Source: a virus. Taken from it: a stretch of 26,071 nucleotides of DNA. The stretch lies in IMG/VR virus record IMGVR_UViG_3300028393_003326, positions 1 through 26,071 of that record; one strand, given 5' to 3'. The notes beneath the pieces are model-generated. The model had not been told where the DNA came from. It saw nothing but the letters and a program-made list of their open reading frames with translations, and made no database searches. A program made the translations under genes and the position numbers. Below, in pieces: positions 4,153 through 26,071 of the stretch (positions are counted from its first letter, which is position 1; every line of letters starts with the position of its first letter).

Positions 4153-4436
4153 AGTACCATCCTTAATAAGCCTATGGTATCTATTGCAACTAACAATAAG
4201 TAGTTAGCCAACATTCCAAATGATTTCCTAGTATAAGCAGCCCAAGAATAGATAGCACAACCACAAATCCATATAGGATATAATATAAGCAAAGGAGGAT
4301 TGGGAACCGTGAATGCCATTGTGATAGAGCACCCAATAGATATACCCCAAGCAAGACACTCCAGCATAAACCTATTAGAATTAGTCCGCCAGTCATCTCT
4401 TATCCATTCTAAAGTTGGTCTAAATAGTTCAATCAT
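4149..4436 (-). CDS. Small three-TM membrane protein inside the clamp-loader operon
   Basis: A 95-residue protein with a polar N-terminus (MIELFRPTLEWIRDDWRTNS) and three hydrophobic segments at about residues 24-43, 47-68 and 73-93. It shares ATGA overlaps of 4 nt with gp44 upstream and with gp62 downstream, so it is translated between the two subunits of one enzyme complex. In T4 the genes 44 and 62 are adjacent, so this is an insertion relative to T4. I know of no function. A role in placing the replisome near the membrane or in nucleoside or ion transport is possible but unsupported. Confidence 0.8.
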   Translation of the reverse strand: MIELFRPTLEWIRDDWRTNSNRFMLECLAWGISIGCSITMAFTVPNPPLLILYPIWICGCAIYSWAAYTRKSFGMLANYLLLVAIDTIGLLRMVL

Positions 4437-5854: not shown

Positions 5855-6511
5855 TTATACCACCGAATCAGGTTCCATTGCAATAAAATAACCCAATGGC
5901 TTTGTTGCGTGTTTAAATTGGAATGCTTTCTTTTTCGAGATTGTAACATTATATGCATCAGGAACAATCTTAAAGTTTTCAACTGCCATGTGGCAATCAA
6001 ATGAATGTTCGCTTTTACCAATAATTTTCTTATAGGTATTTGCGGTATCATTCTTTTTATCACCGATAGTCAATGTAACATTCTCGCCTTTGCTGGAGAT
6101 TGTGATTGTCGGTGCACCTGTAATAGCAGCTGCCTTCATAATCATATTAACATCTTCTGCTGTCAATTTAAATTCATAGTGTGAATCTATTTCGATTTCC
6201 TTTGCAGGTGCTGCTACAATTACGTTTGGTGCAGAATAGAAGTATTCAAACTTGCCGTTGTCCTTCGACATGGTTAAGCTTTTCTCACCAAATTCTACAG
6301 TCTGATTTTCCATTAGTGTTAGCAAAGCTAACAAAGAATTTAAATCGTATACTGCGACTTCCTCTGGAAAGTCTTCAGCAACTTCTGCTCTCGCATAAAT
6401 GTTTTTTGCTGTGCTGATTGTGGATAATACCTTACCTTTTCGGATAAGAATGTTGCTGTTGATACTAGCAAAATTCTTTAGGATATCAATTGTTTCTTTA
6501 CTGATTTGCAT
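5855..6511 (-). CDS. gp45: Sliding clamp gp45 (DNA polymerase processivity factor)
   Basis: A 218-residue homologue of T4 gp45 (228 residues), the trimeric ring that tethers the phage DNA polymerase and, in T4, also activates late transcription. N-terminal MQISKETIDILKNFASINSN parallels T4 MKLSKDTTALLKNFATINSG, and AVYDLNSLLALLTLME parallels the T4 AIYDLNGFLGILSLV segment. The C-terminal GYFIAMEPDSVV parallels T4 YVVALEADS. A strong AAGGAG precedes the ATG. The gene overlaps the upstream DUF3310 gene by 14 nt, so it receives transcripts from the glycan block unless an internal promoter exists in that gene. Confidence 0.96.
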   Translation of the reverse strand: MQISKETIDILKNFASINSNILIRKGKVLSTISTAKNIYARAEVAEDFPEEVAVYDLNSLLALLTLMENQTVEFGEKSLTMSKDNGKFEYFYSAPNVIVAAPAKEIEIDSHYEFKLTAEDVNMIMKAAAITGAPTITISSKGENVTLTIGDKKNDTANTYKKIIGKSEHSFDCHMAVENFKIVPDAYNVTISKKKAFQFKHATKPLGYFIAMEPDSVV

Positions 6512-10456: not shown

Positions 10457-11130
10457 ATTATTTTGTATGTTATGTTATTATCTATTTTATGTTCCGAAGG
10501 AGTACCATAATTTGAAATATAAAATTTAAGGAAGTTTACTGCGTGCGTTGGATCAACATTGTGTTTGTCGTATATGTCTTGCATATGTTTATAAAAGGTA
10601 CAATACTTTTCCATTACAGTATGATTACCAAATGCTAAATGATCTGAAAAATCCCAGCCACCTATATCGGCAGGTATAATGAGTTCATCACTTTTATATA
10701 ATTCTATATTCTTATAAGCAATATCTAATCGGGTTCTTAATATTATATCGTATTCACTAATAATAGATTTGAATCCCTCATTAACAAGATACCATTGGTC
10801 TCGGCATCTGTTAGCCCAAAATGTTCCATGTTCTATTGCTCTTGGATCAGTAACCATTACGTCATCCGATCTGTCGTTTTGTATAAAAGGTATTTTATTT
10901 TTATTGTAATGCTCAAGGTCAAAAATAGAACATGACATTAGATTAGGAACATCCTTGAATATATCTCTTGTTACCTCAGAAGATATTATTTCTTTAGTTA
11001 ATCTATTGTCACTAACATCCCAAGTTGCTATATACACGTCAGCATTATATTTGCGTATAAGTTCTTCTATAGTAAAAAATACTTTTTCAAATGTTCTAGA
11101 AAATCCTGTTAATAAAATTGCTACTCGCAT
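10453..11130 (-). CDS. Putative glycosyltransferase, WavE-like group
   Basis: A 225-residue soluble protein. It begins MRVAILLTGFSRTFEKVFFT and continues with an ADVYIATWD strand; this opening is typical of a poorly described group of LPS/capsule glycosyltransferase-like proteins. A strand with acidic end, YDIILRTRLDIAYKN, resembles the K/R-x-R-x-D nucleotide-sugar binding segment of the WavE group. It sits beside another WavE-like gene and may be a diverged duplicate. It overlaps that gene by 10 nt. The catalytic class is inferred, not certain. Confidence 0.6.
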   Translation of the reverse strand: MRVAILLTGFSRTFEKVFFTIEELIRKYNADVYIATWDVSDNRLTKEIISSEVTRDIFKDVPNLMSCSIFDLEHYNKNKIPFIQNDRSDDVMVTDPRAIEHGTFWANRCRDQWYLVNEGFKSIISEYDIILRTRLDIAYKNIELYKSDELIIPADIGGWDFSDHLAFGNHTVMEKYCTFYKHMQDIYDKHNVDPTHAVNFLKFYISNYGTPSEHKIDNNITYKII

Positions 11131-11909
11131 AAGGCATTATACTCATGTAAATATTGTTCTTCAGTTAAATAGCATCCGAGCCGTTGTGGTTGAAAAGCCC
11201 AATTTAAATTTATAGCTCTTGCAGTAGTTATAGTATTCATAACCTCAAAATTGTCAATTAGTGCGTGCATTGCTAAATCGTCTGGCCACTCTGTTATATC
11301 CAACTCAGGATTAACATATCTTTTAAGTAACATTTTGAACCAAAGATTCTCAGTACAAATAGAACCATTATTTCTTAACTCGGTTATTCTATTTATATCT
11401 AATTTTGGTATGTCCTCAAATACACGACCCCATTTTAAAATATCTTCTCTGGTACCAACTTGAAACCAATCGTTTGCCCTATATGTAGATATATCGATAT
11501 CCGACCCTGGCCTAATAGTCATCATATTACCTATTAGTAATTTCTCATCAAATGCACTAATGTTTGTTTTTGTTTTTTTTGGATAAGTATTTCTTAATTC
11601 GAATAGGTCTCTAAAATGTAATATGTCTGTTCTAGTAACCATTACTTCAGACCCTGTACTAACAGATACGCCTACATAATAACTTTGTGCTTGTCTAAGA
11701 AACTGTTGCACAGGCCCTTCGCCTGGATCATCCGAACAAACAATTTTATCCACACCAACTAACCCTTGTGTAGCATGTTGTTGACTATTCCATGTACTTA
11801 AGATAAGTTCTCCAGTATGCCAACTACGAATACTATCAATGACCTGTTGTATATACACACTAGGTCTCTTATCAAATGCAATACTACCTCTTATAACTAC
11901 AGATCTCAT
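11121..11909 (-). CDS. WavE-like LPS-synthesis glycosyltransferase
   Basis: A 262-residue protein resembling the WavE lipopolysaccharide-synthesis family. Landmarks are an opening beta strand (RSVVIRGSIAF), GELILSTWN (family position of the STW motif), VCSDDPGEGPVQQFLRQAQS, where D-P-G and the later R-Q are typical, and EVMVTRTDILHF with its TRTD segment. ENLWFKMLLKRY and an Asn-rich end follow. WavE was defined in Vibrio cholerae core-oligosaccharide synthesis. Role in this phage: transfer of one sugar of the glycan; donor unknown. 4-nt overlap upstream. Confidence 0.75.
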   Translation of the reverse strand: MRSVVIRGSIAFDKRPSVYIQQVIDSIRSWHTGELILSTWNSQQHATQGLVGVDKIVCSDDPGEGPVQQFLRQAQSYYVGVSVSTGSEVMVTRTDILHFRDLFELRNTYPKKTKTNISAFDEKLLIGNMMTIRPGSDIDISTYRANDWFQVGTREDILKWGRVFEDIPKLDINRITELRNNGSICTENLWFKMLLKRYVNPELDITEWPDDLAMHALIDNFEVMNTITTARAINLNWAFQPQRLGCYLTEEQYLHEYNALCE

Positions 11910-13080: not shown

Positions 13081-13399
13081 GTTGTATTACCTTTTTATCA
13101 TTGCCGCTAGGCGTCTTTACACAAACAACCGTAGTATCTTCCAAAAATACAGGATCAGAAATTTCCCAGGGTTCGACTATAAAGATATCGCCAGTTTTTA
13201 ATTCCTTATCCTGCATTATCATTCTACCACTAACTAATAAATTAATCTCTGTGGTTGTGGTGTGATAATGCATATCCCATTTTTGACCTGCAGGATGTGT
13301 TCTATAATTAACTTCAAAATCTTTAGTATGATATGCAGTTGGTTCAAAGCCTCCGACAAACCAACCATCATGCATATCTTTTATGTTTAGTATTTTCAT
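13070..13399 (-). CDS. Small cupin-fold protein
   Basis: A 109-residue single-domain cupin. Cupin motif 1 is complete: G38-QKWDM-H44-Y-H46-TTTT-E51-INLLVSG, the G(X)5HXH(X)4E metal-binding pattern. Motif 2 is weaker (GDIFIVEPWEISDPVF). Many small cupins in glycan loci act as sugar epimerases, isomerases or regulators, but this one is not clearly of the RmlC type. The ATG at 13399 shares ATGA with the preceding gene's stop, so I prefer it to the longer frame. It lies between a nucleotidyltransferase-HAD fusion and an FkbM methyltransferase. Confidence 0.85.
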   Translation of the reverse strand: MKILNIKDMHDGWFVGGFEPTAYHTKDFEVNYRTHPAGQKWDMHYHTTTTEINLLVSGRMIMQDKELKTGDIFIVEPWEISDPVFLEDTTVVCVKTPSGNDKKVIQHGE

Positions 13400-14493
13400 A
13401 ATCCGTAATCTGTCCAATTTATAGTATTAAATCCAGAGTTTGTAATTGCACTTATACCTACTGCTCTATCCATATCATCAATATTCATTTTATCATTAAT
13501 GATGTATCTGGATCCGCCACCCACTCCCATTACTAACTGATCCCAAGCTAACCCAAAAGAAGTTAATTGTTCTTCGGTTATTTTGCGTGTGCTTTCTTTT
13601 CTTGCGGTGACAAAGATAATCTTATGACCTTTGCTATCCCATTCATTAATTTTGTCAACTACACCCGGTAATATTGTAGGGGCATTCTTATAGACACCGC
13701 TTATAGTATGTTCATGTTTTAATACCGTACCATCTATATCTATGAATAATGTCTTAGGTTTATTAGTATCAAATTCACCAACCTTGCCTAAATATTTTGC
13801 GACATCTTCAGGTGTACCTAACGGAATATATGCATTATTAATTATATGAAAAGGTAAAATTTTAGCGTCACGCAAATAATTGAATGTCTCACTAATATAG
13901 CATTCTGGTCTTCCGGATATTCTAAAAGTATCTAGTAATTTTTTTGCGCTGGTGACAAAGTCTTTCCCTCTTTTCCAATAATGGAATCCAATCAGGGCAT
14001 TATCAGAAATAGGATCCTTCTCCACAACCTTAAAAATTCTATTTAACTTTATTTCAGCAAAACTATTTTTTGGATCTTTACTCTTATATAAAACAAGAGC
14101 AGCATCGGGGTCTTTATCTTTGACCCAAGATAAAAATGACATAGGATCCCATTTAATTATTTGATCGCAATTATAAACAACCAATGGATTATCGTTATCA
14201 ATAAGATCCTTTGCAAACAATACTGTATCTGCTGCACCATCTGTAGTATTACTTATTCTTATTTCTGTATAGTCTATATTTTTGTATTCAAAGATATCTG
14301 TCAATTCTTTATTATGCTCGGGATCATCAAAATCTCTAGTAATAAAAATGAACTTACCCTTAACATTAAAACTATCTATAGAATGTTCTATTAAAGTTTT
14401 ACCATTAACAACAATTAACGGTTTCGGTTTATCTATTCCGATTTTTTGAAATCTAGTTCCCAGTCCTGCCATAGGGATAACAATGTTTATCAT
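13396..14493 (-). CDS. Sugar nucleotidyltransferase fused to a HAD phosphatase
   Basis: A 365-residue fusion with the nucleotidyltransferase first. Residues 1-238: IVIPMAGLGTRFQ, KPKPLIVVNGK, TTDGAADTVL, NDNPLVVYNCDQI, FHYWKRG and LGTPEDVAKYL, all shared with the other fusion (7516-8889). Residues 248-350: a HAD domain with LFIDIDGTVLKHE (D252, D254), PGVVDKINEWDSKGHKIIFV, TARKEST and INDKM. This HAD lacks the long cap of the other fusion and is more like KdsC/PNK-type phosphatases. The ATG at 14493 forms a 4-nt ATGA overlap with the previous stop. It may supply an NDP-sugar to the deoxysugar genes nearby. Confidence 0.88.
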   Translation of the reverse strand: MINIVIPMAGLGTRFQKIGIDKPKPLIVVNGKTLIEHSIDSFNVKGKFIFITRDFDDPEHNKELTDIFEYKNIDYTEIRISNTTDGAADTVLFAKDLIDNDNPLVVYNCDQIIKWDPMSFLSWVKDKDPDAALVLYKSKDPKNSFAEIKLNRIFKVVEKDPISDNALIGFHYWKRGKDFVTSAKKLLDTFRISGRPECYISETFNYLRDAKILPFHIINNAYIPLGTPEDVAKYLGKVGEFDTNKPKTLFIDIDGTVLKHEHTISGVYKNAPTILPGVVDKINEWDSKGHKIIFVTARKESTRKITEEQLTSFGLAWDQLVMGVGGGSRYIINDKMNIDDMDRAVGISAITNSGFNTINWTDYGL

Positions 14494-15170
14494 ACCCTTA
14501 CCCAATCATTAATAAGATGAAATTGGCTGCCTCGACCAACATCATGATAGTATAATTTCTCAGCAGTTAAGTCTAAACTATCTGCTAGATGAATTATGCT
14601 ACTATCTATACAATGTATTTCTTTGGCGTTTTTAATTACGTCTGTCCAATCTAATATAGTATCGGTCAATCCTGATTCAACATAGTATATAGGCAAATCT
14701 GTTGTTATGTCTAAATTGTAAGAACCAGGACTACCTTGACAATGTACTAAGCAATAGTCTTTATCTTTTATAAACTTATTAAAGAATTCTTTACTAGAAG
14801 AATCATCTTTCGGCATTTGAAATTTATCCCATCTATCCTGAAATTCAATACCCGACATACCATAGAATTCAATATCGAAAAATTCAGATCCGCCACCCGT
14901 ATAAATTATATCTAAGTGCGGTATATCTGTACGATACTCGGCAACAAATTGTTGTTCTTTTTCATATGTCTCATAAGGAATAGATACAGGAATTACTATA
15001 TCAGAGTCTTCGTATAGTTTATTTACTGTAGGCAAATTAATATCTTTAACCATAAGATATAATCGCTCTACATCATATTTTTCTATAAGTCCATAAACCA
15101 TACCATTACATATGATGTGGTCACCTAAACCTAAGTGGTGGTGTAATACTAATTCTTTAAATTTTTCCAT
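14490..15170 (-). CDS. GT9-like (heptosyltransferase-type) protein, copy 1
   Basis: A 226-residue soluble protein that opens MEKFKELVLHHHLGLGDHII followed by CNGMVYGL. The H-x-GLGD-x-I-x-NGMV start is shared with the gene at 23087-23869 and resembles the N-terminal loop of GT9 ADP-heptose LPS heptosyltransferases (GDxxxxxP/NG type). A middle YCLVHCQGSPGSY and the late AKEIHCIDSSIIHLADSL match the donor-binding half of that GT-B fold. An upstream ATG (15185) is possible; I prefer 15170 because it aligns with the paralogue and overlaps the preceding gene by only 14 nt. Specificity unknown. Confidence 0.65.
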   Translation of the reverse strand: MEKFKELVLHHHLGLGDHIICNGMVYGLIEKYDVERLYLMVKDINLPTVNKLYEDSDIVIPVSIPYETYEKEQQFVAEYRTDIPHLDIIYTGGGSEFFDIEFYGMSGIEFQDRWDKFQMPKDDSSSKEFFNKFIKDKDYCLVHCQGSPGSYNLDITTDLPIYYVESGLTDTILDWTDVIKNAKEIHCIDSSIIHLADSLDLTAEKLYYHDVGRGSQFHLINDWVRV

Positions 15171-15798
15171 CGTATACAGGCTCATCGTTTTCTGTGTATG
15201 TTTGACCTATGAAATTGTTATTTTCAAAATCATATGTCTCTCTCATCCAATCTACTTCTTTAACTCCATATATTGCAGTATCGTTCATTATGTTTGGCCA
15301 AACTTTATCTCTCAAATAAAATTGATCTACCAAATATTGTTTAACGGAAATATATTCTTGCATAGCATCCTTAAGTGTACTATCCATTATTATATTCTTC
15401 TTACCCCACATACCTGCTAATATAGGAAATTCGTAGTGTGCGTCGTGGTCTCGAATAACCATATAATTATATTCGGATTCGAGCCAGTTGTCAATAAGTT
15501 CTTTTTCTCTTAAACTTAATCTTGAATCTGTGTCCCTAGATAATATCACACCTGGATTATTGAACATCATTTCAAATCTCCAGAATGCACCAAAACTATC
15601 ATCTGTTACTTCTTTAACTATTGTATTTTTAAATGCAGATAGTTTATCTATTGTTTCTTTTGGTACGGTTGCATCGTAGTAAAATACGCATTTCCATTCA
15701 GGAAATATTTCTTCTGCAAGTTCTGCATTTCTAATTGCGCCCTGAAGATATTTAGGATTATCGCCCCAAATACTAAATGTGAAGTATTTGTCTACCAT
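15157..15798 (-). CDS. Putative GT-A glycosyltransferase with a DTD motif
   Basis: A 213-residue soluble protein. It begins MVDKYFTFSIWGDNPKYLQG with a FPEWKCVFYYDATVPKETI strand pair, then FGAFWRFEMMFNNPGVILSR followed by DTDSRLSLRE. The D-T-D (residues 89-91) at the end of a hydrophobic strand is the usual GT-A metal site. A later YNYMVIRDHDAHYEFPILAG continues the pocket. The ATG at 15798 sits inside the tail of the RmlB-like gene (7-nt overlap); a longer frame to 15840 is a shadow of that gene. Donor and acceptor unknown. Confidence 0.65.
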   Translation of the reverse strand: MVDKYFTFSIWGDNPKYLQGAIRNAELAEEIFPEWKCVFYYDATVPKETIDKLSAFKNTIVKEVTDDSFGAFWRFEMMFNNPGVILSRDTDSRLSLREKELIDNWLESEYNYMVIRDHDAHYEFPILAGMWGKKNIIMDSTLKDAMQEYISVKQYLVDQFYLRDKVWPNIMNDTAIYGVKEVDWMRETYDFENNNFIGQTYTENDEPVYDGKI

Positions 15799-16736
15799 AC
15801 AAAATTTGACTTGTGCCAATCCACAACTTCTTCCAAACAAGTATCAAAATCTGCTTCGCATGACCAACCTATACTTTTTAACTTACTATCATCTATAGCA
15901 TAACGTACATCTTGACCCTGGCGCTTTTCCGAAAAATCCATATACTTGTCGTAGTCTGTTCCGGTGCCAAAATAATTATCTATAATTTTTCTTGCAACAA
16001 CGATATTCTTTTCTTCATAGTTACCCGAGATATTATAAATCTCATTGGTAACATTTTGAGAAACAATTAAAGAAACTGCATTTGCCGTATCTGAAACATG
16101 AAGCCATGTTCTAATAGGTTCACCGTTATCGTGCATAACGATTGGTCTATTTAAAGTTAAATTCTTGCATGCTCGTGGAATAAATTTTTCTACATATTGT
16201 CCTATGCCATAATTATTAGTTGGTCTAACAATTACGTAAGGAATATCATATGTTCTTGCCCAGGCAATAACTAACATATCTGCGGCAGCTTTAGTTGCGG
16301 AATATGGATTGCTTGGTTTTAATAAATCTGTTTCAGTATGAAACCCTGAGACTAAGTCACCATACACTTCATCTGTACTAAAGTGTAGCAGTGTCGGTCT
16401 TCGTGATTTTGGTTTTTGTTTGATGAGTTCTAATATCTTATGAACTCCGTTGATGTTACTTCGCAGGAAAACATCTGAGCTGACAATACTATTGTCCACA
16501 TGAGTTTCTGCGGCAGTATTAATAAAGTAATCACAATCAACTAATCGTTCGATATTGTTTATATCGCAACCATCAAATTTAAAATTTTTATATTCTAGTA
16601 ATTCATAAAGAAAGTCTCTATTACTAGCGTATGTTTTACTATCTATACCATAAACATAATGACCTTCATCTAGGAATTTTTTGGTTACATGGTAACCTAT
16701 AAATCCTAAACATCCTGTGACATAAAGTATTTTCAT
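15792..16736 (-). CDS. RmlB-like NDP-sugar 4,6-dehydratase (SDR)
   Basis: A 314-residue extended short-chain dehydrogenase. It makes the NDP-4-keto-6-deoxy intermediate used by 6-deoxyhexose pathways. Visible residues: NAD-binding TGCLGFIG (7-14), NTAAETHVD (73-81), the active-site triad STDEVYGD (T121, D122, E123) and YSATK (Y145, K149), PTNNYG, and RTWLHVSD late in the chain. The STDEVYG motif and overall shape match RmlB (dTDP-glucose) more than the CDP-glucose DdhB type. It may still serve CDP- or GDP-sugars. It overlaps the reductase gene by 4 nt. Confidence 0.9.
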   Translation of the reverse strand: MKILYVTGCLGFIGYHVTKKFLDEGHYVYGIDSKTYASNRDFLYELLEYKNFKFDGCDINNIERLVDCDYFINTAAETHVDNSIVSSDVFLRSNINGVHKILELIKQKPKSRRPTLLHFSTDEVYGDLVSGFHTETDLLKPSNPYSATKAAADMLVIAWARTYDIPYVIVRPTNNYGIGQYVEKFIPRACKNLTLNRPIVMHDNGEPIRTWLHVSDTANAVSLIVSQNVTNEIYNISGNYEEKNIVVARKIIDNYFGTGTDYDKYMDFSEKRQGQDVRYAIDDSKLKSIGWSCEADFDTCLEEVVDWHKSNFVW

Positions 16737-17497
16737 TTCATATATTCTTTCATTCCGTACATAACACCATATAGATCAAAATCTGATAAAAGATCTAGCA
16801 TAGTGGAATCGCCAATATATGGTTTATCACTTGTGGATTCAACTATTATTTCTTTATCTATATTATTTATATCGCAGAATAGTTGTAAAAATTCACTCAA
16901 TGTTCTTTTCTTTTTATACACGCAATCTATTTGCCTGTGATGATAGTTGTTGTTTATAACATATTCTATAATTTTATAAAAATCGCCAATGTAGATATAA
17001 TCAAATTTTCTATCATTAGTTAAAACGAAAGGACCATCCGATGCTAAAAATTTTTTTAATAATCTACTTTCCTTTTCTTCGGAACCAAAACATCCAAACA
17101 ATTTAAGATTGGTAAATTTACTGGGATCTAAATCCCTAGAAATCATTCTTTTAGAAAAAGCATATGCGCTGTTATTGGAATAATCTTGTTCAATACCGGA
17201 TCCTATATTAATGTATCTTCCAAATAAATCAGAATTGGATTTGAAATTATAATACATTGCTAAGTTTTTAGCAACTATACTTGGATCATTACTGTTAACA
17301 TTTTCGTTGCCACCAAAAGTAAGACAATTTATAACGAAATCGGGTTGAGATAGTTCTAATACATTTCTTACAGCGGCAGCGTCAGTTACATCTATACCCG
17401 GTTTGGAGATAGACATTACTGCATTATTCTTTGCTAATCGAGGAGCTATGTATGAACCTATAAATCCTCCAGCACCTAAAATAAGAATATTCTTCAT
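16733..17497 (-). CDS. RmlD/SDR-type NDP-sugar reductase or epimerase
   Basis: A 254-residue SDR protein. The NAD(P) loop is GAGGFIGS (8-15); the catalytic pair is Y112 and K116 in SAYAFSKRM with S100 in NIGSG. Lacking a strong C-terminal signature it is shorter than full RmlD (about 300). It would reduce a 4-keto sugar or a keto branch, or epimerise. Its place between the ThDP genes and the 4,6-dehydratase makes it a candidate for the reduction that completes a deoxysugar (as YerF does in yersiniose synthesis). That role is inferred from position. 4-nt ATGA overlaps on both sides. Confidence 0.8.
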   Translation of the reverse strand: MKNILILGAGGFIGSYIAPRLAKNNAVMSISKPGIDVTDAAAVRNVLELSQPDFVINCLTFGGNENVNSNDPSIVAKNLAMYYNFKSNSDLFGRYINIGSGIEQDYSNNSAYAFSKRMISRDLDPSKFTNLKLFGCFGSEEKESRLLKKFLASDGPFVLTNDRKFDYIYIGDFYKIIEYVINNNYHHRQIDCVYKKKRTLSEFLQLFCDINNIDKEIIVESTSDKPYIGDSTMLDLLSDFDLYGVMYGMKEYMK

Positions 17498-18237
17498 TTT
17501 ATTTTCACTATCATTTCTTTGGTTAATTCCTCATCTGAAAGGAACGGAGTCATATCATGCAGACCAGCTTGCTTGCCATTCTTCAATGCTTGCGCTGGTA
17601 AGATCTCCTGGTCTTCTAAACATTTACAATCTATAATCATAGGACCAACTGTTTCTAATAATCTAGGTAAATTATCAAGACTAGTTTTATTTTTAATAGG
17701 AGCATATTTCATACCAAAGGATGCAGCAATGTTTCTAAAATCAGGAAACCATAATCCTGATTCAGAACTTGTACCGAATACTCGCCCATCAAAGTATTTA
17801 GATTGAGTATTTTTAATACTTAAGTAGCCATTGTTATTCAATATAATAAACTTAATATTAAGATCATGGAGTTTTACCACAGCCAGTTCTTGAAGATTGC
17901 TCATAAAACTACCATCACCCATAATAGATACAACAGGTTGATTACTAGCCATGCTTACACCGATTGCCGCCGGTAATGCCCAGCCCATATCTGCTTGTGC
18001 TGGGCTCGATATAAATCGTTGTCCCTGTTTAACATTTAATGCAACAGGACCAGCATAACTAATACTACCAGCATCCCCCATTAAAATGTCTTCGGGTCTA
18101 CTGTGTTTATTAATAGCATCTAATACTGCGTATAAATTTAATGCGTTATTTTCATTAGTTGCTTCCCACTCGGGTTGCATTACCGGCCAAATATTTTTCC
18201 AATGGTTACATTTATCTATCCAATGTTGATGCTTCAT
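17494..18237 (-). CDS. ThDP-dependent enzyme, C-terminal (PP) subunit
   Basis: A 247-residue protein equal to the C-terminal third of acetolactate-synthase-like enzymes. It binds the diphosphate of thiamine diphosphate through GDG (107-109) followed about 24 residues later by NN (134-135), the GDG-x24-26-NN ThDP motif, in VVSIMGDGSFMSNLQEL. An ISSPAQADMGWALPAAIG segment (76-93) is the usual lead-in to this fold. It lacks the pyrimidine-binding and central domains, which are on the gene immediately upstream (4-nt overlap), so the two would form one active site. Together 583 residues, the size of a normal one-chain enzyme. Confidence 0.92.
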   Translation of the reverse strand: MKHQHWIDKCNHWKNIWPVMQPEWEATNENNALNLYAVLDAINKHSRPEDILMGDAGSISYAGPVALNVKQGQRFISSPAQADMGWALPAAIGVSMASNQPVVSIMGDGSFMSNLQELAVVKLHDLNIKFIILNNNGYLSIKNTQSKYFDGRVFGTSSESGLWFPDFRNIAASFGMKYAPIKNKTSLDNLPRLLETVGPMIIDCKCLEDQEILPAQALKNGKQAGLHDMTPFLSDEELTKEMIVKIK

Positions 18238-19244
18238 ATCATTTCCTTAAAAAAGTCAGATAGCGACATACAAATCTTTTCATTGATAAATAGTACATCT
18301 TTCTTTAGTTCATTATCATCTATGTCAATTAGTATTTTATAACTCTCAGGGCTAAACTGGGTTGGGTCATATCCAACAACACTAGAATTTAAACTACTAC
18401 CCAATACTAATAAACAATCCGCATTCTGCATAGCAAAATTCCCTGCTCTGCTACCCTTAATACCTACCGCACCAATATTCAAAGGATGTGACCCAGGAAA
18501 GTAATCTCTTGCACCATATGTACTAACAAAAGGTAAATCATATGTTTCAATAAAATTTACAAATTCTTTAACTGTGTTACTTTGTCTGATACCGTAACCT
18601 GCCAAGACAACTGGTCTTTGTGCTGTATCTAGTATAGTCTTTATTCTAGATAAATTATTTCTCGTATAGGATGGGGCTGGGTCTACATATAAAGTATAAT
18701 CCTCTGGCATTTGTGCTGTTTGTACATCTCCCGGAATATCTATCCAAACAGGACCTCGACGACCTTCTTTAGCTAGGTGTATAGCATAACTTAATTGATA
18801 TGCTACATCTTCGGGGCTAGTAATAAACTTACTATATTTAGTCATCCCGGCATATGTACTAACAATATCGTGTTCTTGGACACCATATTTTCTAAGACTA
18901 ATACCCTTTTGCATATTGATCCAACTACTACAAGTATTTAATCTAACATTGCCTGATAAAAATAAAACAGGGACACCATCTTGCCAGGCATTTAATACAG
19001 ATGTAGCACAGTTAGTTCCCGCACATCCTGTTGTAGGATTGACTACTGAGAGTTCACCTGTAAATTTACTCTCACCAATAGCAGCATGACCGGCACCTTG
19101 TTCATGATGATAACAGATATAACCTATCTTACCGTGCTTAATAAAACCATCGTTTAATCCGCTAGCACCCCCGCCCATTAACCCATGGACTTTAGTAATA
19201 CCTTGCTGGTATAAGTAATTAGCAATCCAATCGCATACTCTCAT
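18234..19244 (-). CDS. ThDP-dependent enzyme, N-terminal (PYR and central) subunit
   Basis: A 336-residue protein holding the pyrimidine-binding domain and the central domain of the acetolactate-synthase/YerE type. The activating glutamate is E48 in ICYHHEQGAGHAA. VVNPTTGCAGTNCATSVLNA (following the ELS strand), VPVLFLSGN and WIDIPGDVQ are conserved. A central FAD/nucleotide-like domain runs from about 175 to 325 (VVLAGYGIR, LVLGSSLNSSVVGYDP, LIDIDDNELKK). The ThDP diphosphate motif is absent and is supplied by the downstream gene. The ATG at 19244 has AGGAA at good spacing; a longer frame to 19277 overlaps the RfbH gene. Next to rfbH, a YerE-like two-carbon transfer to a 4-keto sugar is plausible. 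Confidence 0.9.
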   Translation of the reverse strand: MRVCDWIANYLYQQGITKVHGLMGGGASGLNDGFIKHGKIGYICYHHEQGAGHAAIGESKFTGELSVVNPTTGCAGTNCATSVLNAWQDGVPVLFLSGNVRLNTCSSWINMQKGISLRKYGVQEHDIVSTYAGMTKYSKFITSPEDVAYQLSYAIHLAKEGRRGPVWIDIPGDVQTAQMPEDYTLYVDPAPSYTRNNLSRIKTILDTAQRPVVLAGYGIRQSNTVKEFVNFIETYDLPFVSTYGARDYFPGSHPLNIGAVGIKGSRAGNFAMQNADCLLVLGSSLNSSVVGYDPTQFSPESYKILIDIDDNELKKDVLFINEKICMSLSDFFKEMI

Positions 19245-19251
19245 ATTTTTC

Positions 19252-20574
19252 CTAAGTAAATAAACCCATAAATCCATCTACAACTTCACCAATATATTCA
19301 ATTTGTTCGGGTGTAATAACTGGACTTGTTCCATGGAAGAATGTGTTTGTCATAACCATTGTTGCAATAGGGAAATTTGCTTTAGCATCTGCAGGATCCA
19401 TAATATGAGAATACGCAGGTTGTAGCATAATATTACCAGCAAAATATGGCCTTGTCTGAATAAGTTTCTCTTCTAAGTATTCCACAATATCACTTCGTGT
19501 AAAAGGAGAACCTTTACGAATAGTTAAGGGGAATGCAAACCAACTGGGATCAGAATGTTCTTGTGGTCTAGGCAAATGGAAATACTCTTCATACTTACTA
19601 TAGATATCAAATAACAATTTATAGTTACGTCTGCGTAGGAAATGAATCTGATCTAATTTTTCTAGTTGAACTAATCCCATTGCTCCCTGCATTTCAATTG
19701 GTTTTAAATTATAACCAATTTCATCATACACATACTTGTGGTCAAATATTTCACCCGGCATTGTAGGAATCCATTCTTGGAATCGTTTACCGCAAGTACC
19801 ACACTTTAGTTTGTTGGCTTCAGGACCTACACAATAACAACCTCTGCCCCATTCTCTAAATGATCTAGCAATAACTTCTGTCTCATAAGTTTTACATGCT
19901 ACAAATCCGCCCTCACCCATAGTCATATGATGTGCAGGATAAAAAGAACAAGATGCCATTTCACCAAATGATCCTAATGGCTTGCCGTCATAAGTACTAC
20001 CTAAAGCATCACAACAATCTTCCAATAAGATTAAATCATACTTATTAACTAATTCCATAACCCATCTCATATTAGGAGGATTGCCTAATACGTGAGCAAA
20101 TGTAATTACCTTAATATTATGTTGCTTAATTAATTCTTCTGCTTTGGTTAAATCTAGATTAAGTGTGTCTAATTCAATGTCTAAAAATACAGGTTCAAAC
20201 CCTAGTTGTAATGTAGGGTTTAGCGTTGTAGGAAATCCTGCGATTGGCATTAATACTTTAGTACCTTTAGGTAAATTATAACCTCTTTTAGAAGTCAATG
20301 TAGCCATCATAAGTAGATTGGAACTTGATCCTGAGTTTGTTAAGATACCGCGTTCTTTACCAAACTGTTTAGGGAATTCCTTCTCAAACTTTAATGACTT
20401 GTCCCCCATAACTAACCAACCATCGAGTAAAGTATCTATGACAGACAAATACTCGTGTTCGTCAAAATAGGGGCCTGCGTAATTTACGAAATCTTTACCC
20501 GCAGTCCATGTCTTATTTGCTGCCTTATTCTGAAAATAAGCAGCTACACCATTAATGATATCTTGTTTATTCAT
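19252..20574 (-). CDS. rfbH: CDP-4-keto-6-deoxyglucose 3-dehydrase-like (RfbH/DdhC type)
   Basis: A 440-residue PLP/PMP enzyme of the DegT fold, matching RfbH/DdhC (437 residues), which removes the C3 hydroxyl of a CDP-4-keto-6-deoxyhexose. The lysine that binds PLP in aminotransferases is replaced by H215 in SFYPAHHMTMGEGG, as in that family. The [2Fe-2S] cysteines are present: C188-x57-C246-x-C248-x12-C261, ending in CGTCGKRF; the spacer to the last Cys is five residues longer than the x7 known in DdhC. FDHKYVYDEIGYNLKPIEMQ follows. The partner reductase (DdhD/E3) is not in the window. The ATG at 20574 starts just after the previous stop; a TTG upstream is rejected. Confidence 0.93.
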   Translation of the reverse strand: MNKQDIINGVAAYFQNKAANKTWTAGKDFVNYAGPYFDEHEYLSVIDTLLDGWLVMGDKSLKFEKEFPKQFGKERGILTNSGSSSNLLMMATLTSKRGYNLPKGTKVLMPIAGFPTTLNPTLQLGFEPVFLDIELDTLNLDLTKAEELIKQHNIKVITFAHVLGNPPNMRWVMELVNKYDLILLEDCCDALGSTYDGKPLGSFGEMASCSFYPAHHMTMGEGGFVACKTYETEVIARSFREWGRGCYCVGPEANKLKCGTCGKRFQEWIPTMPGEIFDHKYVYDEIGYNLKPIEMQGAMGLVQLEKLDQIHFLRRRNYKLLFDIYSKYEEYFHLPRPQEHSDPSWFAFPLTIRKGSPFTRSDIVEYLEEKLIQTRPYFAGNIMLQPAYSHIMDPADAKANFPIATMVMTNTFFHGTSPVITPEQIEYIGEVVDGFMGLFT

Positions 20575-20575
20575 A

Positions 20576-21496
20576 TTACCAGTATGCAAAATTAGTTTCT
20601 AAAAATTTATAATCCTCGCGCTTCTGCGCACTATCTATGGGCATAGGATACATCCAATGGTCATTGTACATATTATACCAACCTTTGTAACCATCAACCT
20701 TTGTCCATCTATATCCTAGTATACCAAAGAATATTTGTATAGCTCCACCCGTTTGAATACCTATTTTACCTTGTTGTTTAGCATAGTCTACATAAAAAGG
20801 AGACGATGTTGTTGCGCCAGAAAGTAAAACATCATAGTCATATTTAGACATTTCTTCCATAATATAACCGACAGTATCCGACCAACTATTACAACCGGGA
20901 TATTGTCTATCATCCATCATAGGATGAAATGGACTTCGTATAACACCTGCTAGTTCAAAAGGTGCAATTATATCTTTATCCTTGCCCCATATTTGTTTTA
21001 TACGATTCCATTGATACTTAATTGTTTCTGCGTGCGTGGATATTACTAATACTTTTTTACCCTTGAGGTATTTTGTCCAAGGATCAATACAACCTGGCAC
21101 ATGAGATGCATGACCTAGAATTGCCCCCGGATCCATAACAAGTATAGAATGCCCAGAATAAATTGGTCTGCCTGCAAAGGTATCATATATGAATTGTTTA
21201 CTAGGATCGTTGTGCATAGAATTTTCTACATCAACAAATCCCAATAAATCAGATTGTTTCATTAAGTCAATAGTTGCAGGATAAATGCTATCCAATAGAT
21301 ATTCTACACTTGTAGGAAATACTCCTGCTTGAACTACCGTGGAATCATTACAAAATTCAGAAGAAGGTTGTTTATTACTTAAGATACATTCTATAATATA
21401 CTTGGCTGTATTGTCAATACGAAGAATAGATGCAGGATCACCTTTAATTAAGGTATCCCTAATTATATCATTCGTTTGTTGATAGCTGATCTTCAT
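20576..21496 (-). CDS. Putative GT-D-like glycosyltransferase, family uncertain
   Basis: A 306-residue soluble protein. A segment DPASILRIDNTAKYII near the start, a strand KKVLVISTHAETIKYQWNRI (about 148-167), YDVLLSGATTSSPFYVDYAK and GKIGIQTGGAIQIFFGILGY resemble the GT-D (DUF1792-like) glycosyltransferase layout, in which R-x-G/D-x-E is expected near the start and a G-x-x-x-D/G loop late. The start motif is only partly conserved (LRIDN). The C-terminus is aromatic (MYNDHWMYPMP). Its gene overlaps the next-upstream transferase by 29 nt. I rate the glycosyltransferase call as fair only. Confidence 0.5.
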   Translation of the reverse strand: MKISYQQTNDIIRDTLIKGDPASILRIDNTAKYIIECILSNKQPSSEFCNDSTVVQAGVFPTSVEYLLDSIYPATIDLMKQSDLLGFVDVENSMHNDPSKQFIYDTFAGRPIYSGHSILVMDPGAILGHASHVPGCIDPWTKYLKGKKVLVISTHAETIKYQWNRIKQIWGKDKDIIAPFELAGVIRSPFHPMMDDRQYPGCNSWSDTVGYIMEEMSKYDYDVLLSGATTSSPFYVDYAKQQGKIGIQTGGAIQIFFGILGYRWTKVDGYKGWYNMYNDHWMYPMPIDSAQKREDYKFLETNFAYW

Positions 21497-22199
21497 AGTA
21501 TTTTGATAGATTAGTAATGTCTGTTTTAATGAAATAGAATGCTTCCTTGACGTCTTCTTCTAAGGACTCATACAATTCTGCCATCTCTCTTTCACCTTGA
21601 TCCTTATTATAATTGGTTCCTGGCGGATGGTCAATAGTATGTGAATAATCTCGGAGAACTGGTCTTTGACTTAAAAAGCTAAGAGCAGAATAAATTATAT
21701 CAAAACTCCAACCCATCTTATACGGAGAGAAATCAATTCCTTTTTCATCTGCCATATTAATAATGTCTTTGTGGATAAACCAACAAGTACAATCTGTATC
21801 TGCTACCATTTTAAGATTGGGTTCATCTATATTAAATTGTAGATCAACTCTGGAAGAATTATACCAAGTATAATCCACATTGGGTGCATAGATTCCCCAT
21901 TCATAAGTTTCAAAATATTTTTCTGCATCAGCATATAATTGTTTCCAATTATCGTATGATGCATCACCCTGAATATGAAATAATACGTCACCGTTTTCTT
22001 TCTTAAAGATTTCCAAAGCTTTCATAAACTGAGCAGTAAAATAACTATCCTCGCCTATGTTATGCCAATCAGGATCGTTATGGTCATCATCACTATTAAT
22101 TACGATTGGTTCAACTCCCATCCCTCTGAGTTGATCTATCTTTTTAATTGTTTTGTCGTATTGTCCGCGCCAATTAAATATAAATGTAAGTATTTTCAT
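21468..22199 (-). CDS. Putative GT-A-like glycosyltransferase
   Basis: A 243-residue soluble protein that begins MKILTFIFNWRGQYDKTIKK with VEPIVINSDD (strand 2 with acidic end), VLFHIQGDASYDNWKQLYAD as the likely nucleotide-sugar/metal site (D after HIQG), and WGIYAPNVDYTWYNSSRVDL. A CTCWFIHKDII segment and MGWSFDIIYSALSFL fit the acceptor half of GT-A enzymes that handle rhamnose- or hexose-like sugars. No membrane segment. Its start overlaps the GT10 stop by one base (TAATG). Exact family not recognised. Confidence 0.6.
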   Translation of the reverse strand: MKILTFIFNWRGQYDKTIKKIDQLRGMGVEPIVINSDDDHNDPDWHNIGEDSYFTAQFMKALEIFKKENGDVLFHIQGDASYDNWKQLYADAEKYFETYEWGIYAPNVDYTWYNSSRVDLQFNIDEPNLKMVADTDCTCWFIHKDIINMADEKGIDFSPYKMGWSFDIIYSALSFLSQRPVLRDYSHTIDHPPGTNYNKDQGEREMAELYESLEEDVKEAFYFIKTDITNLSKYYEDQLSTNE

Positions 22200-23077
22200 T
22201 ATTCTCTCATGTCTTGTTTGTTATAAACTACAGACTCAAACCAATTTAAAAAATTGTTCAAGATCATATAATCTCTAGGGATGCCTGCTGCTAAAGGAGG
22301 CGCTGATATTACTCTGTTATATAGATCCTCATCTGAATCTAATCTCATAACAAAATCAATTACTTCTTCATGATTACTAAAATCATGTACATTAATAAAA
22401 GATTGAATATTAAAGTCTGATGCTATTGTAGGGCTGCCCCAATAGATAGGAATAGTTCTAGCATAAAAAGCATGGAGAATTTTTTCTGTGGCATAACCGG
22501 GATAAGAACCAGACTCAAAACATATATTAAATTTACGCTTGGTCAAGAAATTAATCTTAGCAAGTTCCCCGTCTAGTTTGCTACCTATATTATTGTATAA
22601 GCCTCCGCCGCTATCTACCTTCTTTATCTTATTCAATTCTTTAAAAAATTCATTACGCTCTTCGCAACCTGGATTGCTAACAACAAAAGAACAAAAATCT
22701 GTTTTTAGAATTGGATTATGCTCGCCGAGAATGTGATAATACTTATGCCCAGTGTTGTGAATAGCATCTAATGCCCACATATAAACTACGAACAAGGGTA
22801 AGCGGAAATGCCAATTACTATAGTTATGATCAAAAGTAATTGCATAATGACAGTCATAATTGTCTGGTCTTTGATTCTCACCTGTATAGAAAATCTTAAC
22901 ACAATCCGATTTACTAAATTTTTTATTATTTGTTCCAAAATTACTATCACCGAAGATCAAATAATCAGGATTTTCATTATCTATTTCCACATCAAATCTA
23001 TTTGCCAATAGACTATGGAAGAATTGTGATATATGCTCGTGCGTGTCAGCAAAACCTAATTTTATTTTTTTACTCAT
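22199..23077 (-). CDS. GT10-like alpha-1,3-fucosyltransferase
   Basis: A 292-residue protein with the GT10 donor-binding signature in its C-terminal half: FNICFESGSYPGYATEKILH, then AFYARTIPIYWGSPTIASDF (about residues 200-245). FESG, the T-E-K and IYWGSP are the family hallmarks for GDP-fucose binding. The N-terminal half (YLIFGDSN, IFYTGENQRPD) matches bacterial GT10 proteins. Together with gmd and fcl further upstream it makes a complete route from GDP-mannose to fucosylated product. RBS AGGAA precedes the ATG. No TM segment. Confidence 0.9.
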   Translation of the reverse strand: MSKKIKLGFADTHEHISQFFHSLLANRFDVEIDNENPDYLIFGDSNFGTNNKKFSKSDCVKIFYTGENQRPDNYDCHYAITFDHNYSNWHFRLPLFVVYMWALDAIHNTGHKYYHILGEHNPILKTDFCSFVVSNPGCEERNEFFKELNKIKKVDSGGGLYNNIGSKLDGELAKINFLTKRKFNICFESGSYPGYATEKILHAFYARTIPIYWGSPTIASDFNIQSFINVHDFSNHEEVIDFVMRLDSDEDLYNRVISAPPLAAGIPRDYMILNNFLNWFESVVYNKQDMRE

Positions 23078-23869: not shown

Positions 23870-24621
23870 CGGTTACCTAAGATACCCGATGCTTTAATTT
23901 TTTCTGAAGGCGCACAAAGCATATTTTGCCAATCCACAATGTGATATTCATAATCCGTTAGACTAGACAATTCTTTTTTAATATTATCCTCGCCTGCCAT
24001 ATTATACTCAATCCAAATCCATGGCCTATGTGCTTCTATAGTATTAATTGCTCCACGTAATGCTTCACATTCAAAACCTTCAATGTCTAATTTTAAAAAG
24101 TCTAATCTAGGAAGTTCCATATAGTCTAAAGGAATAACATCTACAGAACTATAATCTAACGACCCAGCTGAGTCTGTTGCTTTAATAGTAACCATACCAT
24201 AATCAGTATTTAAACTATAGTCTACAGGAGATACTTCAGCAGTAGTTTGTTCACTACCTATTCCTAAATTATATAAAAAGACATTTGGTAATTCATTTAA
24301 CGCAATGGTTCCGCCCAACGCATAGAATAATTGTTTCTGTGGTTCAAAAGAAACAACTTTGCTATTTTTTGCCTTTACCATTTGTGCCACAGGAATAGTA
24401 AAGAATCCCATATTAGCTCCGCCGTCCACAATAATAGCATTTTCGGGCAAAGTGTTTATGATTGCGAAGATATTATTTAATTCTTGCTCTATGTGTGTTT
24501 TGCCTGTCATCAGCATTACAGATGCCGGATTAGGTGTTGGGTGACCGGGTGTGCAATTTCTAGGCAAAATAAATTTACCATATGCAGAATCCATTACCAT
24601 AAAATTGCCTAGTGTGCTCAT
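23866..24621 (-). CDS. FkbM-family methyltransferase (third of three)
   Basis: A 251-residue SAM methyltransferase. The SAM loop is VDGGANMGFFTIP (about residues 65-77); VVSFEPQKQLFYALGGTIAL is the second strand; LDFLKLDIEGFECEALRGA holds the conserved D-I-E-G-x-E. It is the most canonical FkbM member of the three in the window. It follows fcl and precedes a GT9-like and GT10 gene, so O-methylation of fucose is a reasonable guess but not established. 4-nt overlaps with both neighbours. Confidence 0.92.
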   Translation of the reverse strand: MSTLGNFMVMDSAYGKFILPRNCTPGHPTPNPASVMLMTGKTHIEQELNNIFAIINTLPENAIIVDGGANMGFFTIPVAQMVKAKNSKVVSFEPQKQLFYALGGTIALNELPNVFLYNLGIGSEQTTAEVSPVDYSLNTDYGMVTIKATDSAGSLDYSSVDVIPLDYMELPRLDFLKLDIEGFECEALRGAINTIEAHRPWIWIEYNMAGEDNIKKELSSLTDYEYHIVDWQNMLCAPSEKIKASGILGNR

Positions 24622-25553
24622 ATCATTCCTCGATCTTTTTTATACCAATCAATAGTAAGTTTTAACCCGTCGTCAAAACTTGTTTTAGATTTCCATCCCA
24701 ATTTTTTTAATTTAGTGTTATCTAGTTTGCGTCTTGGTTGTCCGTTGGGTTTATCCTTATTCCAAACAACCTTGCCTGTAAATCCAAAAGCTTTTGTTAA
24801 TTTGGTTACAAGTTCTTTGATAGTTAATTCTTCATCACTTCCGATATTAACAAATTCTTTTTCATTATAATTTTGCATTAACCAAAAGCAAGCATCTGCC
24901 AAATCATCTACATATAAAAACTCTCGCGTTGGAGTTCCGTCACCCCAACATTCAATACTATCCTCACCATTCTTTATCGCATTATGCATCTTAGTAATAA
25001 TGCCAGGAATAACGTGCCCATGTTCTGGAATAAAATTATCATTAACACCATATAGATTCGCGGGCATACAACTAATAGCATTAAACCCATACTGACGTCT
25101 GTAGTATTCGCACATTCTTAAGCCAGCAATTTTAGCAAGAGCATATCCCTCATTCGATGGCTCAAGAGAAGCTGTAAGAAGATATTCTTCTTTGATAGGT
25201 TGAGGAGTAATTTTTGGATAGATACAAGCAGAACCTAAAAACAATAATTTTTTAGCGCCACTTCTATATGCCGCATCTATAACATTTGTTTGAATAATTA
25301 AATTATCATATATGAATTCTGCGGGGTTAGTTGAATTCCAACTAATGCCACCAACTTTAGCAGCACTTAAAATTACATACTCAGGTAACTCTATACTAAA
25401 AAAATTCTTGACAGCCCTTTGATCTCGAAGATCTAATTCTGCCTTTGTCCTAAGAATTAGATTTGTATAACCTTCTTCTTTTAATTTTCTAACAATCGCA
25501 GATCCAACTAATCCTTTATGGCCTGCTACATAAATTTTACTATTTTTTTCCAT
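24618..25553 (-). CDS. fcl: GDP-L-fucose synthase
   Basis: A 311-residue SDR that epimerises at C3/C5 and reduces GDP-4-keto-6-deoxy-D-mannose to GDP-L-fucose. Signature features: GHKGLVGSA (11-19), SAAKVGGI (63-70), FLGSACIYPK with S108 and C110, and Y137-ALA-K141 (compare E. coli Fcl S107, C109, Y136, K140). The next block, NLYGVNDNF then HVIPGI, is also diagnostic. The ATG at 25553 is chosen with AAGG upstream over a TTG; it starts 7 nt after the gmd stop. Its product would feed the GT10 enzyme in this block. Confidence 0.97.
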   Translation of the reverse strand: MEKNSKIYVAGHKGLVGSAIVRKLKEEGYTNLILRTKAELDLRDQRAVKNFFSIELPEYVILSAAKVGGISWNSTNPAEFIYDNLIIQTNVIDAAYRSGAKKLLFLGSACIYPKITPQPIKEEYLLTASLEPSNEGYALAKIAGLRMCEYYRRQYGFNAISCMPANLYGVNDNFIPEHGHVIPGIITKMHNAIKNGEDSIECWGDGTPTREFLYVDDLADACFWLMQNYNEKEFVNIGSDEELTIKELVTKLTKAFGFTGKVVWNKDKPNGQPRRKLDNTKLKKLGWKSKTSFDDGLKLTIDWYKKDRGMI

Positions 25554-25560
25554 AAAATCC

Positions 25561-26071
25561 TTAACCAAAATTAATACACATATCCTCTACCAGAGCATCG
25601 AAAGTATATTCTGGCTCCCAACCTAAAACGCTCTTAGCTTTTGAGGGATCACCGAGCAAAGTCTCAACTTCAGCTGGTCTAAAATATTTAGGATCAACTC
25701 TAATTATAACTTTACCCGTATTAACATTAATGCCTACTTCATTTAATCCTTCGCCTTCCCAACGAATTTTTAGATAGAAATATGGGGCACATTTCTCAAT
25801 AAAGTCCTTAACCGAATATTGTTTACCTGTAGCAATGACAAAGTCTTCTGGTTTATCCTGTTGTAACATTAACCACATTGCCTTAACATAATCCTTAGCA
25901 TGCCCCCAATCTCGTAAAGCATTCAGATTGCCCATATACAAACACTCTTGGCGACCTGCACTAATTGCTTCTAAACCATCTACAACCTTCTTTGTGACAA
26001 AATTAAATCCACGGCGAGGAGATTCGTGATTAAATAAAATACCAGAACAACAAAACATATCATATGATTCA
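25561..26071 (-). CDS. gmd: GDP-mannose 4,6-dehydratase, C-terminal part (cut by window edge)
   Basis: About 170 C-terminal residues of Gmd, which converts GDP-D-mannose to GDP-4-keto-6-deoxy-D-mannose. The frame stays open to the right edge, reading [20 protein letters not shown], close to E. coli [20 protein letters not shown] as recalled. [20 protein letters not shown] (NADP/substrate region), [14 protein letters not shown] and [18 protein letters not shown] are all family hallmarks. The internal ATG at 26058 is not the start. The product feeds fcl directly downstream. Confidence 0.97.

Follow-up and report, generated by a model that had tools for sequence, protein, structure and literature searches.

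A Phage Gene Set Predicted to Make a C4-Branched 3,6-Dideoxyhexose, with a Two-Subunit YerE-like Enzyme in an Exchangeable Slot

Closest Described Systems

The genes for the branched sugar yersiniose A lie in Yersinia pseudotuberculosis in the order DdhA-DdhB-DdhC-DdhD-YerE-YerF. A phage gene set that can be compared with this pathway is described here. It was found in IMG/VR virus record IMGVR_UViG_3300028393_003326, of which positions 1 to 26,071 were analyzed (26,071 nucleotides; the window), and comprises adjacent genes for a DdhC-type 3-dehydrase (RfbH), a thiamine diphosphate (ThDP) enzyme encoded in two parts, a short-chain dehydrogenase/reductase (SDR), and an RmlB-like 4,6-dehydratase. 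We put the probability at roughly two in three that these genes provide a phage-borne route to a nucleotide-activated C4-branched 3,6-dideoxyhexose, with an exchangeable slot for the branch. Like the yersiniose A pathway, the set clusters a DdhC-type 3-dehydrase, a YerE-like ThDP enzyme, and an SDR, and the same order of reactions is possible. It differs in having an RmlB-like enzyme in place of DdhA/DdhB, in that DdhD was not found, in its two-subunit ThDP enzyme, in its carriage by phages, and in its exchange slot. The yersiniose analogy drawn in the original prediction, which was made from this DNA alone, is thus supported for the DdhC-type and YerE-like parts but not for the route itself, given the RmlB-like dehydratase and the DdhA and DdhD queries that found no match on a related 222-kb contig.

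The enzymes known to make C-branched sugars fall into three ThDP classes, namely YerE-like decarboxylases, alphaKADH2, and transketolases, according to a review (PMC12247030). A YerE-like enzyme of known structure is JanthE from Janthinobacterium sp. HH01 (PDB 8rph-8rpj; PMC12188165). On the viral side, published papers name ddhC and rfbH as viral auxiliary genes (PMC10653327), name rfbH among Sargassum virus genes (PMC11295528), list such genes in viral metagenomes with a warning of cellular contamination (PMC3877843), report GDP-fucose genes in phages (PMC10611076, PMC9602691), and treat the glycans of giant viruses (PMC9614988). The word acetolactate does not occur in the first five of these. 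No description of a phage set of this kind was found in the open PubMed Central literature, whose coverage leaves out subscription papers and preprints. The earlier statement that no such set had been described therefore holds for the set in the literature found but not for RfbH/ddhC itself. Viral RfbH alone and YerE-like branching were already known; within that literature, the sugar entry, the split ligase, and the exchange slot are new.

The Five-Gene Cassette and Its Recurrence

The genes of the cassette are as follows.

19252..20574, complementary strand: RfbH/DdhC-type 3-dehydrase, dependent on pyridoxamine 5′-phosphate (PMP); coordinates from ATG, with a TTG start extending the open reading frame (ORF) to 20589
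18234..19277, complementary strand: ThDP enzyme, PYR and middle domains (N+M half; PF02776 and PF00205)
17494..18237, complementary strand: ThDP enzyme, PP domain as a separate subunit (C half; PF02775), GDG motif kept
16733..17497, complementary strand: extended-SDR reductase (PF01370/PF04321), proposed reducer of the branch ketone (YerF-like role)
15792..16736, complementary strand: RmlB-like nucleoside diphosphate (NDP)-glucose 4,6-dehydratase, with TDE and YxxxK motifs

Profile matches confirm the families originally assigned to these co-directional and tightly packed genes, and 4-nt overlaps are present at all three junctions among the two ThDP genes, the SDR gene, and the RmlB-like gene. 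For the N+M half, alignment favors an inner ATG at 19244 as the start, in which case this gene and RfbH do not overlap. All five genes are carried with 100% protein identity on a 222-kb contig. The ratio of nonsynonymous to synonymous substitution rates (dN/dS) between the window and the related locus L025 is 0.03-0.19 for the five genes, which are under purifying selection between the two.

Three scans of viral contigs yielded loci L005-L048 and L054-L125; the third kept the 80 nearest of 117 relatives, so that the sample is biased toward window-like sequences. From a total of 125 loci, 23 were left out (13 second loci of one contig, the window's own, three from annotated phage records, five bacterial, and L021, whose ORFs are broken up), giving 102 viral contigs. 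A ThDP enzyme is present in 100 of these and is split in 84 of the 100. RfbH lies at most six ORFs from the ThDP gene in 96 of the 100, and RmlB at most eight ORFs away in 84 viral contigs. Among the 45 well-flanked contigs of the main group (at least 6 kb on each side), RmlB occurs in 45, RfbH in 44, a split ThDP enzyme in 41, an SDR of the C2 family in 28, and an aminotransferase beside the ThDP gene in 23. Many of the contigs are closely related; thinning by ThDP similarity leaves 62, and 59 of them contain RfbH. A second phage group, made up of seven contigs with an SDR of the C21 family and of L018, combines a split ThDP enzyme with an RfbH that shows about 38-41% identity, and RmlB is absent from the stretches covered. 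Within L012-L019, a phage group different from that of the window, with RfbH, the split enzyme, and mostly SDR C21 but likewise no RmlB in the stretches covered, several contigs also contain an ORF of about 1,800 amino acids or more.

In a collection of annotated phages, the best ThDP match has 36.9% identity over half of the query (37 records), RfbH homologues reach 44% among the best 60 of 79 records, and the three stretches examined contain no ThDP match. Cyanophage S-B43 resembles the window in having an RfbH homologue (42%) within a run of sugar genes and differs in that no ThDP enzyme is present in the stretch viewed. In the marine virus AG-345-D19 (L002:6188-9230), an RmlB-like gene is paired with RfbH (44%), again with no ThDP enzyme in the stretch covered.

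Kinship of the ThDP Enzyme

The original prediction had suggested a YerE-like role for the ThDP pair and named grouping with catabolic acetolactate synthases as the outcome that would speak against this. JanthE (8rph) is the top solved structure for both halves, with 162 bits versus 145 for the next structure for the N+M half and 113 versus 72 for the C half; for a fused relative from L026, the corresponding scores are 308 and 204 bits. A tree of 67 rows was built with Oxc, PoxB, Gcl, AlsS, and acetohydroxyacid synthase (AHAS) as references and JanthE as the sole characterized YerE-like row. The main phage clade (30 rows, support 100/100) joins 24 YerE-like rows (20 bacterial, JanthE, and three other phage forms), which cohere at 93/93, in one clade supported at 100/98, and the alternative in which the main phage rows group with AHAS fails the AU test (p-AU 0.0105). 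This choice between YerE-like and AHAS kinship depends on the outgroups PoxB, Oxc, Gcl, and AlsS, with few references and long branches, the unrooted tree alone being insufficient. The window's enzyme further shares the HHEQ and GYD motifs with JanthE, which differs in being a single chain with CDG, whereas the phage protein is divided before the PP domain and has GDG.

Residues at the active site point the same way. Arg276 and Trp464 of AHAS are acceptor-site residues; R276, W464, F109, and K159 are found in none of the 43 split phage rows. Threonine occupies the place of W464 in all 43 and in 19 of the 20 bacterial YerE-like rows, tryptophan in six of nine AHAS rows. The tyrosine Y297 of JanthE (numbered here one higher than in its paper) is present in 43/43 split and 16/20 bacterial rows and has a counterpart in 0/9 AHAS rows. 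Against the acetolactate synthase model TIGR00118 (cut-off 538), the halves score only 175-177 and 102 bits and the fused relative 319 bits, and homologues of ilvC, ilvD, and ilvN are absent from the viral loci. These results support a YerE-like kinship for the pair, apart from both catabolic and biosynthetic acetolactate synthases. Of the computational checks that had been proposed, phylogeny supplies this kinship, while the fold comparison gives no separation.

It is accordingly very unlikely that the two halves form an acetolactate-synthase-like enzyme serving amino acid metabolism, or some other ThDP enzyme that uses pyruvate, and that their place among sugar genes is incidental. Most of the best 25 NCBIfam matches per half do bear the name acetolactate synthase, and the structural match to AHAS equals that to JanthE, but the scores far below AHAS cut-offs, the missing acceptor-site residues, the tree, the lack of ilv partners, and the linkage to RfbH noted above all argue otherwise.

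The Split Form

The enzyme is divided at the linker preceding the PP domain. In the 84 split loci, the first gene ends in ATGA in 81, in TTGA in two, and in GTGA with a longer overlap in one. A frameshift was considered as the origin of the two genes and is ruled out by the recurrent ATGA ending. From its gene structure, the enzyme is thus predicted to be a two-subunit, translationally coupled form. A fused form is found in five contigs (L118-L121 and L125), whose four distinct rows nest inside the split clade. Both the sister phage form and the relatives in bacteria are fused as well, so the tree calls for two changes, most simply one fission and one re-fusion.

When bacterial genomes were scanned once with the phage alignment, no close relative of the split form emerged, a result that does not prove absence. 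Five of 180 pattern matches were confirmed, at 29-31% identity; by eye these lie beside ilv-type genes, in L052 solely an IlvN-like ORF, and L053 has an incomplete ThDP ORF. In a search of plasmids, most of the genes in 40 of 1439 records carried an acetolactate synthase annotation and some had none; another search gave five E. coli records, two of them annotated ilvG.

The 3-Dehydrase

The window's RfbH scores 445.7 bits against NF011936, above the curated cut-off of 423, and its nearest solved structure is DdhC/E1 (3bcx, 344 bits), with the ColD-type 2gms at 188 bits. The DdhC motif consists of the histidine that replaces the lysine binding pyridoxal 5′-phosphate (PLP), together with Cys193/251/253/261 of E1 as Fe-S ligands. 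In an alignment to E1 of 88 rows (identical rows taken once, rows longer than 395 amino acids), His220 and the four cysteines are conserved throughout: in 64/64 main-group, 7/7 second-group, 3/3 other phage, and 14/14 bacterial rows. As predicted from the window's His and Cys residues, the pattern is that expected of a DdhC rather than a ColD.

The 4,6-Dehydratase and the SDR

Several lines of sequence evidence separate the 4,6-dehydratase from CDP-specific enzymes, in agreement with the original prediction. The window's protein scores 65 bits against CDP_4_6_dhtase. A 36-row tree places the 14 phage dehydratases together (100/100) and groups them with E. coli RffG and the marine virus RmlB-like protein of L002 (96/93), while 15 bacterial DdhB (CDP-glucose 4,6-dehydratase) rows form a separate clade (100/98). 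The TDE motif is present in all 14 phage rows, with TDK or SDK in the DdhB rows. With two bacterial DdhA sequences as queries, the 222-kb contig gave nothing at E 1e-3 and the viral loci a single weak match of 16.7 bits. DdhB queries reached no genes other than the gmd-like and RmlB-like ones, with scores not exceeding 48 bits for the 222-kb contig and 54 bits overall. These findings support the view that an RmlB-like, probably dTDP-type, dehydratase stands in for DdhA/DdhB. The SDR model (pLDDT 94.3) matches RmlD and GalE-type SDRs with Z about 26, and the motif pattern of the protein is likewise that of an SDR.

An Exchange Slot Between RfbH and SDR/RmlB

The stretch between RfbH and the SDR/RmlB genes varies among the contigs. 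In the loci mapped, it contains the split ThDP enzyme alone or the same enzyme preceded by a class I aminotransferase. Seven contigs have instead a fused ThDP form with HpcH-like, SDR, and AroB-like genes, the last scoring 369.7 bits against TIGR04425 (cut-off 400). A different fused form stands beside a cupin gene and a small ORF lacking a family match in L034, L035, and L039; L046 has this fused form without either neighbor, and in L102 the same cupin and small ORF accompany the split enzyme. Genes resembling the alpha and beta subunits of pyruvate dehydrogenase E1 (PDH-E1) accompany the split enzyme in L036, L037, and L081 and replace it in L048, and in L042 (10122-11209) the YerE-like enzyme is replaced by the N and C halves of a transketolase-like enzyme, located between RfbH and RmlB. 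The PDH-E1-like and transketolase-like genes score below NCBIfam cut-offs. Relatives of all three ThDP classes implicated in C-branching are therefore found in the slot. The slot pairs of L036, L037, L081, L048, and L042 resemble the alphaKADH2- and transketolase-type enzymes of antibiotic sugars (PMC12247030) but differ in residing in phage cassettes with RfbH. In some contigs, the SDR and RmlB genes lie upstream of RfbH instead.

Comparison of the window with L046 delimits the slot at the DNA level. Identity is 83.5% up to position 19260, eight bases before the RfbH end, and 82.3% from 17497, the first SDR base, with no match in between. This pattern is a clean exchange of the slot, and the L046 ligase groups with JanthE, away from the window's enzyme (100/98). 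Two further features of the fused slot ligases and their neighbors were recorded: the ligases of L026 (11889-13667), L030, L032, L038, L041, L043, and L047 have GEG instead of the GDG of ThDP enzymes (7/7 rows), and in L038 and L043 the AroB-like and SDR slot genes lie on the opposite strand of an otherwise co-directional cassette.

The partner genes in the slot may supply the 2-oxo acid donor. A branch longer and more functionalized than a two-carbon one, like those of erwiniose or caryophyllose, with the donor made by the slot aminotransferase, HpcH-like aldolase, and AroB-like phospholyase, is conceivable though rather doubtful. In 39 of 100 contigs, the ThDP gene has a class I aminotransferase gene as a neighbor; in the seven contigs mentioned, the fused form is accompanied by HpcH-like and AroB-like genes; and ErwE prefers hydroxylated donors longer than pyruvate (PMC12247030). 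The window's slot, on the other hand, has no partner gene, which fits pyruvate as the donor; the partner genes could also serve other roles, and the HpcH match is below its cut-off.

Bacterial Relatives

The closest full-length ThDP relatives in 392 genomes of one phylum were examined for their gene neighborhoods, with 20 of the 25 top loci covered. Motifs identify an RfbH in 14 of the 20, a DdhB in 15, a DdhA-like gene in 11, and an STDEVYG dehydratase in none; in L182 and L183, DdhA, DdhB, and RfbH each exceed NCBIfam cut-offs. These DdhA-DdhB-RfbH-ThDP clusters thus share with the phage cassettes an RfbH near a YerE-like ThDP enzyme (14/20) but differ in having CDP-glucose enzymes rather than RmlB and in a ThDP enzyme that is one chain in all 20. 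Such related bacterial gene sets could suggest that the cassette is a carried-over bacterial fragment with no function in the phage. We regard this as extremely unlikely in view of the low dN/dS values, the recurrence in many viral contigs, and the failure to find the split enzyme in the single bacterial genome scan.

Neighboring Genes and Phage Context

Other features of the window bear on its phage nature and on the use of the sugar.

24618..25568, complementary strand: GDP-L-fucose synthase-like (fcl-like) gene, clustering with an L022 protein
25561-26070: gmd-like gene, cut by the window end (judged by the L022 relative)
22199..23077, complementary strand: family 10 fucosyltransferase-like glycosyltransferase (PF18025 and PF00852 over cut-off), in the same gene run
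20576..21496, complementary strand: conserved gene just upstream of RfbH, perhaps for a GT-D-type glycosyltransferase (PF22882 match weak and below cut-off, E 0.0026)
5855-6511: putative sliding clamp (judged by reading of the sequence)

The L022 fcl-like protein scores 427.6 bits against NF047922 (cut-off 500) and the L022 gmd 540.4 bits against TIGR01472 (cut-off 415). The gene at 20576..21496 adjoins RfbH in many window-like relatives. A T4-type clamp loader is encoded at 4433-5374, with its best match in Methylophilales phage Melnitz (61.6%), a match that makes freshwater Methylophilaceae candidate hosts. Contamination or an assembly artifact was considered and is ruled out by this clamp-loader gene together with the recurrence of the cassette in many contigs. 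The same sugar-gene run includes a WavE-like lipopolysaccharide synthesis protein (PF07507) at 11121-11909. Two proteins, at 7516-8889 and 13396-14505, join HAD phosphatase and sugar nucleotidyltransferase domains in opposite orders.

A crude hydrophobicity scan of the 222-kb contig found one ORF of at least 200 amino acids with four segments and none with more, and hence no flippase- or polymerase-like membrane protein was seen; the same scan found at least 12 ORFs with eight or more hydrophobic segments in the bacterial neighborhoods. Such a result would fit a cytoplasmic target (virion proteins or DNA, for example) better than a new O-antigen, and is suggestive only.

Proposed Pathway and Alternatives

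In the pathway that we propose, the RmlB-like enzyme would form an NDP-4-keto-6-deoxyglucose, most likely dTDP-linked and derived from host dTDP-glucose. RfbH, with PMP and its Fe-S cluster, would then probably strip the C3 hydroxyl using electrons from a host reductase, the nucleotide carried at this step being less sure. By kinship and linkage, the two-subunit ThDP enzyme is likely to decarboxylate a 2-oxo acid (pyruvate or longer) and add the acyl carbanion to the C4 ketone, and the SDR may reduce the branch ketone. Glycosyltransferases of the same run, for example the family 10 enzyme, could attach the branched sugar or others, such as GDP-fucose made via Gmd and Fcl. The slot, with the predicted branch-adding ligase and its partner genes, is swapped between phages, and the backbone enzymes are retained; the branch, and hence the glycan, could thereby change. 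The proposal draws on the co-occurrence of the genes, the ThDP tree and residues, the RfbH residues, the placement of the RmlB-like enzyme, the bacterial linkage of RfbH, the slot exchange, and the lack of ilv partners. The gene functions fit the branched 3,6-dideoxy sugar of the original prediction, whose exact identity and branch length we infer.

Several observations weigh against this pathway. The known DdhC acts on a CDP sugar rather than a dTDP sugar. YerE likewise acts on a CDP sugar (PMC12247030). The RmlB-like enzyme scores 292 bits against TIGR01181 (dTDP-glucose 4,6-dehydratase), below the cut-off of 365, and is for this reason called RmlB-like and not RmlB. The seven second-group contigs with SDR C21 have no RmlB in the stretches covered, and neither RfbH nor DdhB is identified by motif in five of the 20 bacterial neighborhoods, some of which are short. 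R276 is present, as in AHAS, in 14 of the 20 bacterial YerE-like rows, so that this residue gives no clean separation. Fold comparison of the N+M half ties JanthE (Z 26.8) with AHAS (Z 26.7), with phenylpyruvate decarboxylase also within one Z unit of both, which makes the structure comparison uninformative on function. The SDR is only generally RmlD/GalE-like, its comparison yielding the extended-SDR class alone.

DdhC requires a reductase partner. A phmmer search with one DdhD-like query detected no such homologue, either on the 222-kb contig or among the viral loci; the contigs may be incomplete, and host enzymes may serve instead. A PF00175 search of six large contigs also had no match; this search type is insensitive, a PF00483 run having missed a gene known to be present on the contig searched, and the PF00175 negative was rechecked by phmmer. 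A DdhD-like reductase is close by in only two of the 20 bacterial neighborhoods, which makes a distant or general reductase a plausible electron donor for RfbH.

Some of these points would be explained if the same chemistry took place on a CDP or GDP sugar, with the RmlB-like enzyme belonging to another pathway and RfbH using host CDP-4-keto-6-deoxyglucose or GDP-4-keto-6-deoxymannose from the phage Gmd. The CDP specificity of DdhC is in keeping with this, as are the second-group contigs, which have RfbH and the split enzyme and lack RmlB in the stretches covered, and the Gmd- and Fcl-like genes that lie a few genes upstream in many window-like contigs. RmlB, however, is near the ThDP gene in every one of the 45 well-flanked contigs and gmd/fcl in 18 of them (loci of about 8 kb on each side), and we consider this alternative unlikely.

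Implications for Phage Biology

A broader interpretation, which we offer tentatively and at somewhat less than even odds for all its parts taken jointly, is that aquatic T4-like phages possess a modular system. In it, a fixed RmlB-RfbH-SDR core would make a dTDP-3,6-dideoxy-4-keto sugar, an exchangeable slot with YerE-like (split or fused), PDH-E1-like, or transketolase-like ligases and the partner genes that make their donors would set the branch, the split YerE-like enzyme would be a phage invention, and phage lineages would vary the glycan on virion or DNA as a trait of evasion or recognition. If the proposed pathway is correct, the cassette would be a near-complete branched-sugar route in phages whose architecture is its own: entry would be of the dTDP type, the ThDP ligase would have two subunits, and the branch would be set in an exchange slot. 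The slot contents would form a natural library of candidate ketone-accepting ThDP enzymes of relevance to biocatalysis. The cassette would also give a handle on the long sugar-gene runs of aquatic phages, that is, on which glycan is made and where it is placed, and it raises the question of whether slot exchange alters host range or resistance to host defenses.

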